Of a DNA stretch of 64,000 bases, positions 51,836 to 64,000 are shown piece by piece. Numbering within the stretch: the first letter of the stretch is position 1; the number at the start of each line of letters is the position of its first letter. The translations under genes were made by a program, and so were the position numbers. The notes beneath the pieces were generated by a model. It worked only from the letters and a program-made list of their open reading frames with translations. It did not search any database and had not been told where the DNA came from. The DNA lies in contig NZ_CP036298.1 of the NCBI RefSeq assembly GCF_007752135.1, positions 558,001 to 622,000 on the forward strand. The letters are read 5' to 3'. The DNA comes from Aureliella helgolandensis. Lineage in GTDB: Bacteria; Planctomycetota; Planctomycetia; Pirellulales; Pirellulaceae.

Positions 51836-52308
51836 GCCCGGTTATCCGCCGAATACTACTGAGTCTATGTGTGATGGAAACCCAACGTGTGGATGGCTGT
51901 GTTCCAAGGATGAAGTTTGGGAAAGCGATCGAATCGAAGTTTGCAGGTTCCCTCGATCATGCCCGCTCACCAACTCTGCATCGGAAATGCCGTCCCGAGG
52001 TGTGGGAGGGTAATCATACCCTGGATGCGCCGAGCAGTTGAGGCTCAAGCCGCAAGCCTACGGGCCGCAAATCTCTTGTGCAAAGTTGATTGTCGGTGGA
52101 CATTTCGACCGAGTGGCCCCCGATAGGCTCCAATCATAACCATTTCAACGGGTTCCTACGACTCGTCTGCCGCCGAGTTTTTGCCTGGCGGCGGTTCCGA
52201 TCGATTCAAACTCTCTAGGGAGTGCGGAAATCGTTCGTCAGAGTACAATGCCCAAGTTGAATCGCTGGAATTCCCTTGTCCTTTGAAGATGCAGCCAGAG
52301 AGCCGGTC
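51836..52308. other. Intergenic region between mcsA and trpE
   Basis: 473 bases between divergent genes; promoters for both are expected. An inverted pair GCCGCC/GGCGGC surrounds a T-rich loop at about 52170-52195, 115 bases before the trpE start, but no Trp-codon leader peptide is evident. No gene is convincing. Confidence 0.45.
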
Positions 52309-53823
52309 ATGCTTGTAAGCCCAGTTTTGGAACGATTTGCCCAGTTGGCTCAGAATCACGAATTGGTGCCCGTCTATCGCCAGCTCCTGAGCGATGCATT
52401 GACGCCCGTCTCTGCATTTTCACTGCTGGATGACGGCGAATCGGCTGCCTGCTTGTTCGAGAGCGTCATTGGTGGGGAGAAAGTAGGTCGCTATAGCTTC
52501 ATTGCCGTTCGACCTCGCGGCCGGATTTTCGCACATGGGTTGGAAGTTACCACCAATTTTGGTGGACAGGAAAAAACGGAGACGGTCGCCGATCCACTGG
52601 ACAGTCTGTGGGATACGGTGGCTGGCAAACGCATCGCCGATTTGCCCGAATTGCCTCCCCTGTCTGGTGGGGCGATCGGCTACGCGGGGTACGACGTCGT
52701 GCGGTATGTCGAGCATCTTCCCAATGCCCCCGAGGATGATCGGGGGCTGCCCGATATCGATTTCTCCATTTTCGATGACCTCGTCATCTTCGATCATGTC
52801 ACCAAATCACTGTTTGTAGTGGCCATCATGCACTGTGATGAGTTCGACAGTGCCGAAGCGGCCTACGCGGCGGGCAGCCAGCGTTTGCAGGAATTGACCG
52901 AGCAACTGCAGCAGCCTCACCGGGGTCTGACCGCTACCGATTTTTGTACCGGTGAATCAGAGCCACTCCAGCCGATAAGCAATTTCACGCAAGCCGAGTT
53001 TGAAGCGGCGGTTGAAAAGTGCACGGAGTACATCCGGGCAGGCGATATTTTTCAAGTGGTGATTAGCCAGCGAATGGAGCTGCCCAATCTGTGCGAGCCC
53101 TTTGAGGTCTATCGCTCGCTGCGGGTCGTGAACCCCAGTCCCTTTATGTTCTACGTGCGCACCCCGGCAGTCACGCTGGTGGGGGCGTCGCCCGAAGTGA
53201 TGTGTCGGGTCGTGGGGGGCGTGATGACGGTGCGACCTCTGGCCGGAACGCGAAAACGTGGCAAGACCGCCCGCGAAGATACGGAGCTGGCTGCAGAACT
53301 TTTGGCCGATCCCAAGGAGCGGGCCGAACATGTGATGTTGGTCGACCTGGGACGCAACGATGTTGGTCGCGTCGCTAAGTATGGAACCGTAGAGTTGAGC
53401 GATGTGATGACGGTTGAACACTACAGCCATGTGATGCACATCAGTTCGAATGTGCAGGGAGAATTACGCGAGGGCTTGACCGCCATGGATGGGCTAAAAG
53501 CCAGCTTGCCGGCCGGAACGGTGAGCGGGGCGCCGAAGGTGCGGGCCATGGAAGTGATTGACGAAATTGAACCGCACCGACGTGGCCCCTACGCGGGCGC
53601 CGTCGGCTATATCGATTATTCCGGGGATATGGATACTTGCATCGCCCTCCGAACTCTGGTGTTCAGTGGTGATAAGATTTATGTGCAGGCAGGTGCCGGT
53701 ATCGTCGCGGACAGCATCCCGAGTGAAGAGTTTCAAGAGACGCTGAATAAAGCTGGCGCCATGCTAAAAGCGATCGAAACCACTGTCGCCCGCACCGGTA
53801 AGTCCAATACAGCCCACTCGTAG
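52309..53823 (+). CDS. trpE: Anthranilate synthase component I
   Basis: 504 residues from ATG 52309; TTG 52276 would add 11 residues. Converts chorismate and glutamine or ammonia to anthranilate. N-terminal PVYRQLLSDALTPVSAF and SVIGGEKVGRYSFIA; C-terminal catalytic blocks AGDIFQVVISQRMELP, NPSPFMFYVRTPAVTLVGASPEVMCRV, TVRPLAGTRKRGKTAREDTELAAELLADPKERAEHVMLVDLGRNDVGRV, VEHYSHVMHISSNV, PAGTVSGAPKVRAMEVIDEIEPHRRGPYAGAVGYI and RTLVFSGDKIYVQAGAGIVADS. No trpG or other trp gene follows. The stop TAG (53821-53823) lies in the first unit of the 199-bp repeat array. Confidence 0.95.
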   Translation: MLVSPVLERFAQLAQNHELVPVYRQLLSDALTPVSAFSLLDDGESAACLFESVIGGEKVGRYSFIAVRPRGRIFAHGLEVTTNFGGQEKTETVADPLDSLWDTVAGKRIADLPELPPLSGGAIGYAGYDVVRYVEHLPNAPEDDRGLPDIDFSIFDDLVIFDHVTKSLFVVAIMHCDEFDSAEAAYAAGSQRLQELTEQLQQPHRGLTATDFCTGESEPLQPISNFTQAEFEAAVEKCTEYIRAGDIFQVVISQRMELPNLCEPFEVYRSLRVVNPSPFMFYVRTPAVTLVGASPEVMCRVVGGVMTVRPLAGTRKRGKTAREDTELAAELLADPKERAEHVMLVDLGRNDVGRVAKYGTVELSDVMTVEHYSHVMHISSNVQGELREGLTAMDGLKASLPAGTVSGAPKVRAMEVIDEIEPHRRGPYAGAVGYIDYSGDMDTCIALRTLVFSGDKIYVQAGAGIVADSIPSEEFQETLNKAGAMLKAIETTVARTGKSNTAHS

Positions 53824-53970
53824 AATGGCCCCCCGGGCCGTTGTAGCTGTTTCGTCTCCATGGTCTCCTCCTTCCATCCGCAAATTGCCGTTAGGATCGC
53901 GGTTTCAGTCTTGCTGTGCTGACAGCCTCCTCAGACCACCTTGTAGCATCGATCACTCTTCCTCGCTCAC

Positions 53971-54086
53971 CGGGCTGTTGAAATAGTAACCCGCCGCGTG
54001 AGCAAGGGGAGATAACCTCTGCTACAAGGGAATTAAGGATGCTACCTCCGCATTAAGATTCGATTTGCTATTAAATCAACAGCCCG
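53971..54086. mobile_element. MITE-like element, 116 bp, with TIRs and 4-bp target duplication
   Basis: Begins CGGGCTGTTGA and ends TCAACAGCCCG, an 11-base perfect terminal inverted repeat. It is flanked by TCAC at 53967-53970 and 54087-54090; the other array units have one TCAC at this place (TTGCTCACGCGGCGG). The interior has no coding potential. It carries GTAACCCGCCGCGTGAGCAAGG, itself the reverse complement of the target module. A diverged copy lies at the window's right edge. Confidence 0.85.
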
Positions 54087-54148
54087 TCACGCGGCGGGTT
54101 GCAATAGAAAGCGTCTGTAGCCGTCACTGCCAGCCCTCCGGTAGAATG

Positions 54149-54171
54149 CCCCCCCCCCCCCCCCCCCCCCC
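54149..54171. repeat. Poly-C tract of 23 bases
   Basis: Unit 2 of array 1 has 23 consecutive C where sister units have six or seven. This is consistent with slippage, or with an assembly or sequencing artefact. Confidence 0.9.
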
Positions 54172-55243
54172 GGGCCGTTGCCACTGTTTCTCCCCATCGT
54201 CTCCTGATTCATCCGCAAGATGCCGTTAGGATCGCGGTTTCAGTCTTGCTGTGCTGGCAGCCTCCGCAGAACACGCTTGTAGCATCGACCACTCTTCCTC
54301 GCTCACGCGGCGGTTTACATTTGGAAGCGTCTGTAGCCGTCACTGCCATCCCTCCGGTAGAATGGCCCCCCGGGCCGTTACCACTGTTTCTCCCCATCGT
54401 CTCCTGATTCATCCGCAAGATGCCGTTAGGATCGCGGTTTCAGTCTTGCTGTGCTGGTAGCCTTCTCAGACCACCTTGTTGCATCGGCCACTTTTCCTTG
54501 CTCACGCGGCGGGTTACAATTGGAAGCGTCTGTAGCCGTCACTGCCATCCCTCCGGTAGAATGGCCCCCCGGGCCGTTGCCACTGTTTCTCCCCATCGTC
54601 TCCTGATTCATCCGCAAGATGCCGTTAGGATCGCGGTTTCAGTCTTGCTGTGCTGGTAGCCTCCGCAGAACACGCTTGTAGCATCGATCACTCTTCCTTG
54701 CTCACGCGCGGGTTACAATTGAAAGCGTCTGTAGCCGTCACTGCCATCCCTCCGGTAGAATGGCCCCCCGGGCCGTTACCACTGTTTCTCCCCATCGTCT
54801 CCTGATTCATCCGCAAGATGCCGTTAGGATCGCGGTTTCAGTCTTGCTGTGCTGGTAGCCTTCTCAGACCACCTTGTTGCATCGGCCACTCTTCCTTGCT
54901 CACGCGGCGGTTTACAATTGGAAGCGTCTGTAGCCGTCACTGCCAGCCCTCCGGTAGAATGGCCCCCCGGGCCGTTACCACTGTTTCTCCCCATCGTCTC
55001 CTGATTCATCCGCAAGATGCCGTTAGGATCGCGGTTTCAGTCTTGCTGTGCTGGTAGCCTTCTCAGACCACCTTGTTGTATCGGCCACTCTTCCTTGCTC
55101 ACGCGGCGGTTTACAATTGGAAGCGTCTGTAGCCGTCACTGCCATCCCTCCGGTAGAATGCCCCCCCGGGCCGTTGCCACTGTTTCTCCTCATTTCTTTT
55201 CGTTGGCCCCCTCCATTCGACTGCGAGGAGCGACCGGCATTGG

Positions 55244-62329: not shown

Positions 62330-63905
62330 AAATCGCAACCCGCTGCGTGAGCAAGGAAGAGTGGTCGCGGCTGTTGGGTGCTGTTGGGCGCTGTCTTTGC
62401 GGTCTGCCTAAAACTGCGTTTTAAGAAGTCACCGTTGTGTGTGGGTGTTGTGGGCTCTCTTGGTGCGGGGAGTGGTTTGGGGTGGCGATGACTGGAGAAC
62501 GCGTGGCGACGGCCCGGGGGGGCCATTCTACGGCCACGCTTGGAATGCGTTGCTTGAAATCGCAACCCGCTGCGTGAGCAAGGAAGAGTGGTCGCGGCTG
62601 CTGGGTGCTGTTGGACGCTGTCTTTGCGTTTCGCCTAAAACTGCGTTTTAAGAAGTCACCGTTGTGTGTGGGTGTTGTGGGCTCTCTTGGTGCGGTGAGT
62701 GGTTTGGGTTGGCGATGACTGGAGAACGCGTGGCGACGGCCCGGGGGGCCATTCTACGGCCACGCTTGGAGTGCGTTGCTTGAAATCGCAACCCGCTGCG
62801 TAAGCAAGGAAGGGTGGTCGCGGCTGTTGGGTGCTGTTGGACGCTGTCTTTGCGTTTCGCCTAAAACTGCGTTTTAGGAAGTCACCGTTGTGTGTGGGCG
62901 TTGTGGGCACTCTTGGTGCGGTGAGTGGTTTGGGTTGGCGATGACTGGAGAACGCGTGGCGACGGCCCGGGGGGCCATTCTACGGCCACGCTTGGAGTGC
63001 GTTGCTTGAAATCGCAACCCGCTGCGTAAGCAAGGAAGAGTGGTCGCGGCTGCTGGGTGCTGTTGGACGCTGTCTTTGCGGTCCGCCTAAAACTGCGTTT
63101 TAGGAAGTCACCGTTGTGTGTGGGCGTTGTGGGCACTCTTGGTGCGGTGAGTGGTTTGGGTTGGCGATGACTGGAGAACGCGTGGCGACGGCCCGGGGGC
63201 CATTCTACGGCCACGCTTGGAACGCGTTGCTTGAAATCGCAACCCGCTGCGTAAGCAAGGAAGAGTGGTCGCGGCTGTTGGGTGCTGTTGGGCGCTGTCT
63301 TTGCGGTCTGCCTAAAACTGCGTTTTAGGAAGTCACCGTTGTGTGTGGGTGTTTGGGGCTCTCTTGGTGCGGTGAGTGGTTTGGGTTGGCGATGACTGGA
63401 GAACGCGTGGCGACGGCCCGGGGGCCATTCTACGGCCACGCTTGGAACGCGTTGCTTGAACTCGCAACCCGCTGCGTGAGCAAGGAAGAGTGGTCGCGGC
63501 TGTTGGGTGCTGTTGGGCGGTGTCTTTGCGGTCCGCCTAAAACTGCGGTTTAGGAAGTCACCGTTGTGTGTGAGCGTTGTGGGCACTCTTGGTGCGGTGA
63601 GTGGTTTGGGGTGGCGATGCCTGGAGGACGCGTGGCGACGGCCCGGGGGGCCATTCTACGGCCACGCTTGGAACGCGTTGCTTGAAATCGCAACCCGCTG
63701 CGTAAGCAAGGAAGGGTGGTCGCGGCTGTTGGGTGCTGTTGGACGCTGTCTTTGCGTTTCGCCTAAAACTGCGTTTTAGGAAGTCACCGTTGTGTGTGGG
63801 CGTTGTGGGCACTCTTGGTGCGGTGAGTGGTTTGGGTTGGCGATGACTGGAGAACGCGTGGCGACGGCCCGGGGGGCCATTCTACGGCCACGCTTGGAGT
63901 GCGTT
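62330..63905. repeat. 226-bp tandem repeat array 2
   Basis: Seven units marked by CAACCCGCTGCG at 62336, 62563, 62789, 63014, 63240, 63464 and 63691, and a related TAACCCGCTGCG at 63917; spacing 224-227. Each unit has GTGAGCAAGGAAG, GTTTTAGGAAGTCACCG, the palindrome GGCCCGGGGGGCC and CATTCTACGG. A 234-codon minus-strand frame (62882-63586) is an artefact of near-multiple-of-three spacing. Confidence 0.93.
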
Positions 63906-64000
63906 GCTTGAAATAGTAACCCGCTGCGTGAGCAAGGAAAGATAGTTGCCGCTACAAGGCAGTTTGGGCGCAACCTCCGCGTTAAAATTCAAATTGCTAT
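63906..64000. mobile_element. MITE-like element copy 2, cut by the window edge
   Basis: From about 63906 the sequence (TTGAAATAGTAACCCGCTGC, then a GCTACAAGG block, then ACCTCCGCGTTAAAATTC) aligns with most of the 116-bp element at 53971. It is in the same orientation and about 95 bases long, and cannot be followed past 64000. The right-hand inverted repeat is not visible. Confidence 0.6.

Follow-up and report, generated by a model that had tools for sequence, protein, structure and literature searches.

A 116-bp segment downstream of trpE in the planctomycete Aureliella helgolandensis is very probably a non-autonomous DNA transposon (MITE) that is moved in trans by a transposase located outside the window (the whole stretch of 64,000 nucleotides analyzed here), inserts at a targeted sequence and nests within other members of its own family. 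The site choice of this MITE is non-random and its targeting is real: among the copies flanked by an exact duplication, 21 of 33 lie on one motif, at a single base position (61-copy union, defined below), and a copy of that motif is carried inside the element itself. The targeting is not absolute, since the other 12 of the 33 lie elsewhere.

The element in the window

The MITE starts 147 bases past the stop codon of trpE and lies in the first unit of a tandem array (array 1). Its two ends both read CGGGCTGTTGA inwards and are identical at 11/11 bp. The relevant features are as follows.

52276..53823, + strand: trpE, an ORF matching TIGR00564 with 566.3 bits (cut-off 517.7)
53824..54165, - strand: array 1, first unit, interrupted and containing the MITE (repeat comparison)
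53967..53970, no strand: left TCAC of the 4-bp target duplication, four bases being the length typical for the MITE family
53971..54086, + strand: MITE, complete copy of 116 bp, with ends and length read from the window and a profile match of 128 bits
53971..53981, + strand: left terminal inverted repeat CGGGCTGTTGA, from the window sequence
53986..54007, + strand: internal copy of the target motif, GTAACCCGCCGCGTGAGCAAGG, from the window sequence
53998..54001, + strand: GTGA at element positions 28-31, predicted landing site for another copy (site model and junction positions)
54076..54086, - strand: right terminal inverted repeat CGGGCTGTTGA, from the window sequence
54087..54090, no strand: right TCAC of the 4-bp target duplication, from the window sequence
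54166..55193, - strand: array 1, 199-bp period, 5.2 copies (tandem repeat scan and profile)

The original prediction described an element of 116 bp whose 11-bp inverted ends are perfect and which is flanked by a TCAC duplication, as the letters of the window bear out. It also gave one TCAC at the same position in the sister units, and this too is the case: five uninterrupted units of array 1 have a single TCAC at the homologous place (54303, 54502, 54702, 54900 and 55099), the unit with TCAC at 54702 being one base out of step. The segment itself is absent from these sister units. That it was ancestral to all units of array 1 and later lost from the sisters finds no support and has next to no probability, given the undisturbed site with one TCAC in the sister units and the presence of the same element at unrelated places with other duplications.

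The interior of the element had been taken for the reverse complement of the target module. This holds at 20/22 bases, the rebuilt real target (with a single TCAC) differing from the reverse complement of GTAACCCGCCGCGTGAGCAAGG at 2/22; the window contains a single exact reverse complement of GTAACCCGCCGCGTGAGCAAGG, at 54496. The claim that the element is inserted into a copy of the motif in its interior holds here and in the examined rest of the genome. The copy in the window did enter a reverse complement; this orientation is without meaning, however, because the on-motif insertions are 11 in the forward and 10 in the reverse orientation.

The element has the attributes of a MITE: it is 116 bp long (the limit being under about 600 bp) and without a transposase gene, and it has inverted ends, a constant 4-bp duplication and a dispersed multi-copy family. 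The statement that the transposase is not in the window is in line with the absence there of a second pair of MITE ends, judged by the ends. When folded as DNA together with its duplications, the element exceeds all of 200 shuffled sequences in stability (z -3.0), which is explained by its inverted ends, as these give such a fold.

A dispersed family with a 4-bp duplication

The genome (8.44 Mb, one contig) contains 222 copies of the perfect 11-mer end, compared with 15 for the reversed pattern. The third base after the 11-mer is T in 207/222, as at both MITE ends, and is not T in 15; the reversed pattern gives 14. The ends are therefore not a product of chance, given this difference (222 vs 15) and the dispersed copies with their own 4-bp duplications at the same boundaries. 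A genome search with the window element, in which 40 of 280 candidates were scored, gave at least 46 matches, at least 40 of them complete or nearly so; at least 39 further complete or near-complete copies among these scored candidates are 89-93% identical to the MITE of the window.

A profile was built from 30 copies, themselves found with the window copy, and identified 47 complete copies in a 2.084-Mb sample that was non-random, as several blocks had been picked for known copies and one block had 2500 masked bases. The flanking duplications of these 47 copies are exact at 4 bp in 25 and at 2 bp in 2, and none is exact at 3 or at 5-9 bp; 34/47 have at most one mismatch at the 4-bp duplication. 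The profile copies of the 2.084-Mb sample and the copies from the element search together make up a union of 61 complete copies, in which the 4-bp duplication is exact in 33, has one base different in 14 and more than one in 14. The recurrence of the duplication in other copies, on which the original prediction had been staked, is thus found in 33/61 exactly and in 47/61 with at most one mismatch. Between nearest neighbours, the complete copies have a median identity of 94.8%. Related copies are more numerous: an iterated profile matched 199 in 1.684 Mb and 0 in the reversed sequence, and a broad profile matched 221 in 2.084 Mb.

At E 1e-5 the MITE was detected in none of 14 other congeneric genomes; a 23-base pattern of its ends had 0 matches in a collection of genome contigs from which its own genome was possibly left out. 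The two Rfam matches, both with animal RNA families, remained under the gathering score and gave no lead.

Target preference

Each rebuilt site was scored in register against AACCCGCNGC[GTNA]GCNAGG (17 fixed bases), and sites with a score of 12 or more were considered on-motif. In the 2.084-Mb sample 19/25 exact-duplication copies were on-motif (at least 12/17; 9 forward, 10 reverse), one of the 19, at 4264097 (duplication TCTT), only just reaching the threshold of 12; random positions reach this score with a probability of 4.2e-4 (200,000 positions). The most used site is the 20-bp motif AACCCGCYGC-GTSA-GCAAGG. It would be very improbable that there is no targeting and that one motif insertion was multiplied with its flanks by recombination or gene conversion between repeats. 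Such a process is suggested by the numerous and nested copies and by the 28/61 without an exact duplication, as nested recombination would give; against it, the on-motif insertions occur both ways (11 and 10), their duplicated bases vary (GTGA, GTAA, GTCA, GCGA, ATGA and complements) and their outer flanks differ.

The 12 off-motif sites alone, with both strands counted, have a palindromic consensus, nnCCCnnnnCTnnAGnnnnGGGnn, which amounts to about CCC, then G-C before and after the TNNA duplication, then GGG. In a leave-one-out assessment of the model built from these 12 sites, the median rank of a site left out of the model is 0.04% among 50,000 random 24-mers, and the worst is 0.85%. On-motif sites rank under the same model at a median of 0.09% (worst 1.9%), and in the MITE family consensus the GTGA at positions 28-31 is the best internal site, at 0.1%, the next one being at 6%. 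The motif is thus in accord with a preference that emerges separately from unrelated sites, and this argues for recognition by the transposase.

What the 12-site model leaves unexplained is the share taken by the motif: 2353 sample sites equal or exceed the score that the site carried by the element has under this model, and 172 of them are motif-like, yet 19/25 insertions are found on the motif. A per-site comparison with the motif score set at 12 carries little weight, as chance alone (4.2e-4 of 2.08 million) would produce about 875 of the 938 positions. The large share could also come from tethering, in which the motif would be a transposase-binding site near the end of the element, old copies with bound protein would draw new ones and the target sequence would matter less. 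The motif begins 7 bp inside the left inverted repeat and is taken far above its share of equally scoring sites, as tethering would have it. We consider it rather unlikely, however, as the off-motif insertions have a palindromic consensus in common with the motif, one exact base is used in both orientations with no spread nearby, and two other kinds of elements (described below) also use the motif. This last point indicates that the motif attracts by itself.

Nesting, ladders and tandem arrays

In the 2.084-Mb sample, 32/47 complete copies adjoin another match of the MITE family, and 35/44 junctions with adjoining family members fall at model positions 28-32. In one such nest, positions 1-31 (7534149-7534179) are followed by a complete copy and then by positions 28-116 (7534296-7534384), with GCGA duplicated. 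The nesting of copies within copies and the resulting ladders of 31-nt footprints would follow from the targeting of the motif, the GTGA within the element scoring highest among its internal sites. Eighteen ladders were detected, with either two or three footprints each, the depth of three being reached twice; in the same scan neither the reversed sequence nor any of ten scrambled units gave a ladder. Some copies, e.g., that at 246362, have unlike flanks, GTGA at one end and TCAC at the opposite end. These mismatched flanks may be the result of recombination between nested copies, which may also explain some of the 28/61 copies that have no exact duplication.

A second tandem array occurs near the end of the window.

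62330..63939, + strand: array 2, 226-bp period, 7.1 copies, with 8 MITE-family matches, two of which span only positions 8-39

By their matches to the MITE model, the units of array 1 and array 2 are classed as decayed members of the MITE family, which accounts for the target motif in both arrays. Each of the five array-1 units has a decayed relative of the MITE (positions 8-102 in four and 12-102 in one; E 3e-4 to 4e-8), and the stretch 53895-53977 of the interrupted unit is a weak match (positions 21-102, E 0.27). In the 1.684-Mb sample 64/199 related copies are inside tandem arrays of period at least 60, and 12/23 such arrays have a MITE-family copy, the arrays representing 0.9% of the sample.

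Tandem arrays of varied periods with one MITE-family copy per unit are also present at genome positions 8109426-8111419 and 6879652-6880382. Array 1 includes a run of 23 C (window 54149-54171) where sister units have 6 or 7 C. At another locus (L061, 3061-4243), a 1183-bp unit between MITE-type 11-bp ends contains 241-bp tandem repeats with the motif in each and has non-matching flanks (GTGA and TCAC).

Other elements that use the motif

The first of the two other kinds of elements is a 1532-bp insertion sequence (IS) with a 444-codon transposase that matches NF033551 with 333.1 bits (cut-off 270). It belongs to the IS1182 family, as its transposase is above the cut-off and it has inverted ends, which read TAGGCTGTGAA on 17/17 copies. 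The 17 copies (loci L081-L097) encode proteins 98-100% alike, and there is in addition one short distant match. All 17 are inserted at the same place, AACCC[GCY]GCG, with an exact 3-bp duplication in 15/17; 15/17 of the sites score at least 11/17 for the motif, and two (L086 and L096) share only the core.

This IS would be an obvious candidate for the driver, with the MITE as its derivative and one transposase reading the motif for both. The ends are alike (TAGGCTGTGAA vs CGGGCTGTTGA, with GGCTGT and GA in common), all 17 IS copies occupy the motif that the MITE uses, a few bases away from the MITE site, and inverted repeats enclose at least four relatives found in other genomes of the class (L209, L211, L212 and L216, judged by eye at 27 loci). 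The IS was nevertheless rejected as driver on duplication length (3 vs 4 bp) and site, the duplication (exact in 15/17 of its copies) involving other bases of the motif. The identity of its proteins (98-100%) compared with the median of 94.8% among the MITE copies implies, moreover, that the two bursts differ in age. In its ends and duplication length the MITE differs from the single IS1182 element examined, although its partner may be a more distant member of that family. We regard the 1532-bp IS as an improbable driver, and movement of the MITE by another transposase is preferred.

The second kind is a group II intron-type element of 2.2 kb located inside a MITE copy (6516636-6518886; L189, 16636-18886). 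It encodes a reverse transcriptase/maturase of 404 codons (TIGR04416, 385.2 bits, cut-off 300) with a GIIM domain, and TGAGCGAGG of the motif comes directly after the 3' end of the element. Another copy, alike over 704 bp (6874618-6875321; L206, 14618-15321), ends at the same base in another member of the MITE family, so that 2/2 copies seen are on the motif. Rfam detected no group II RNA at this element at E 0.1.

Search for the driver transposase

The original prediction had proposed looking for a full-length transposon with the same ends. None was found in the 2.084-Mb sample. Nor did inspection by eye of the first 100 perfect ends in the genome listing, which reach 3.97 Mb, give an end pair with a transposase. 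The 2.084 Mb include four cases in which two MITE-type ends lie 0.6-4 kb from each other and have matching 4-bp flanks: two contain an IS1182-family copy each, one, spanning 2251 bp, contains a group II intron-type element, and one consists of two MITEs around a JetD-like gene. A JetD_C gene (PF09983, 119.6 bits; DUF3322) is found between two MITE copies at L240, 17508-18725.

Among the PF01609, PF13546 and PF13701 transposase groups whose ends were examined, none fits the MITE. A second PF01609 group, of 470 codons (L099-L109 and L112), sits at palindromes GGTGTCCGACACC of another repeat family and was rejected as driver on account of its insertion in a different palindromic repeat, and the IS701-like and IS1380-like groups were rejected because their ends are unrelated to the MITE ends. 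The driver would be either in the part of the genome beyond this search, or an element with diverged ends, or lost. Since no transposase with MITE ends was found, the agent of the targeting is one that we infer.

The motif outside this genome

The pattern AACCCGCNGCGTNAGCNAGG has 251 matches in this genome and 1-20 matches in 13/59 other genomes of the taxonomic family; its reversed form has none in any of the 60 genomes. A strict form of the motif was found in 3/99 other genomes of the taxonomic family, in one copy each. At 13 places outside this genome the match to the MITE model lies within positions 7-40, which correspond to the motif and not to the rest of the element, and 6/13 of these places have an inverted partner no more than 200 nt away (with 6/20 bases different at most). 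Because the outside matches are confined to the motif and in part have inverted partners, they suggest that the motif is an older REP-like repeat that the MITE would have taken up. In this genome 1/7 places with a Y1 transposase has a MITE-family copy in its 1.5-kb flank; there is no clear link of the motif to these 7 places, and homology to the repeats at Y1 transposases gave no lead.

Comparison with known systems

Bacterial elements that choose repeats have been described. ISPsy8, ISPa11, ISPpu9/ISPpu10 and ISRm22 have a 'type 1' association with REP sequences, in which every copy breaks the same repeat at the same base; ISPsy8 produces a 3-bp duplication, and ISPpu9 and ISPpu10 are dissimilar elements on one common repeat (Tobes and Pareja, 2006; PMC1525189). 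The IS1182-family element of A. helgolandensis is of this type, with 17/17 copies at the same base and 15/17 with an exact 3-bp duplication. In the type 1 ISs as described there, all copies are on the repeat, and the target is a host repeat outside the element, whereas the MITE uses its motif non-exclusively (21/33 exact-duplication copies, which places it outside type 1) and has its target inside itself, so that its own spread makes targets (PMC1525189). Some members of the IS1182 family are reported to target palindromes, and IS1272 is inverted-repeat-replacing, in contrast to the 3-bp duplication inside the motif that is made by the IS1182-family element here (PMC5678879).

Self-directed insertion is already known from IS30, whose dual target specificity comprises near-palindromic hot spots and sites beside its own inverted repeats (PMC9333248). 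IS30 is described as landing beside its own ends; the MITE, in contrast, is non-autonomous and lands at internal positions 28-31, a site of the same kind as its outside sites (PMC9333248). Like REPIN/REP sequences as presented in the sources cited, the MITE family is short and high-copy, and its 20-bp motif recurs in 13/59 other genomes of the taxonomic family; unlike them, it is a 116-bp MITE with inverted ends and a 4-bp duplication (PMC3116915, PMC3733652). In the openly licensed literature, mostly titles and abstract openings, no bacterial MITE with its own target inside and no report of this family was found.

Proposed mechanism and biological meaning

Insertion of the element produces a 4-bp duplication at a non-random site; the motif is carried beside the left end, and both older copies and decayed relatives, among them the array-1 unit, contain insertions of further copies at positions 28-31. 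The site preference would be a property of the missing transposase and not of homology between donor and target. Each new copy would add a target by way of its own landing site, and insertions would then pile up on older copies. A broader reading, which we offer tentatively as a possibility that falls short of being probable, is that of a self-seeding element: the MITE would have taken up a repeat common to its bacterial family and preferred by its own transposase, each insertion would provide a fresh landing site, and the resulting nests would serve as a sink, as landing pads for two unrelated kinds of elements and as founders of tandem arrays.

Although bacterial elements that choose repeats were already known, in this family the target is part of the element, and consequently the supply of targets rises as copies accumulate. 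In the 31-nt ladders and the duplicated GTGA sites the genome keeps a natural record for reading the order of insertions, and the family provides a case for testing whether self-targeting shields a genome from its own transposons.
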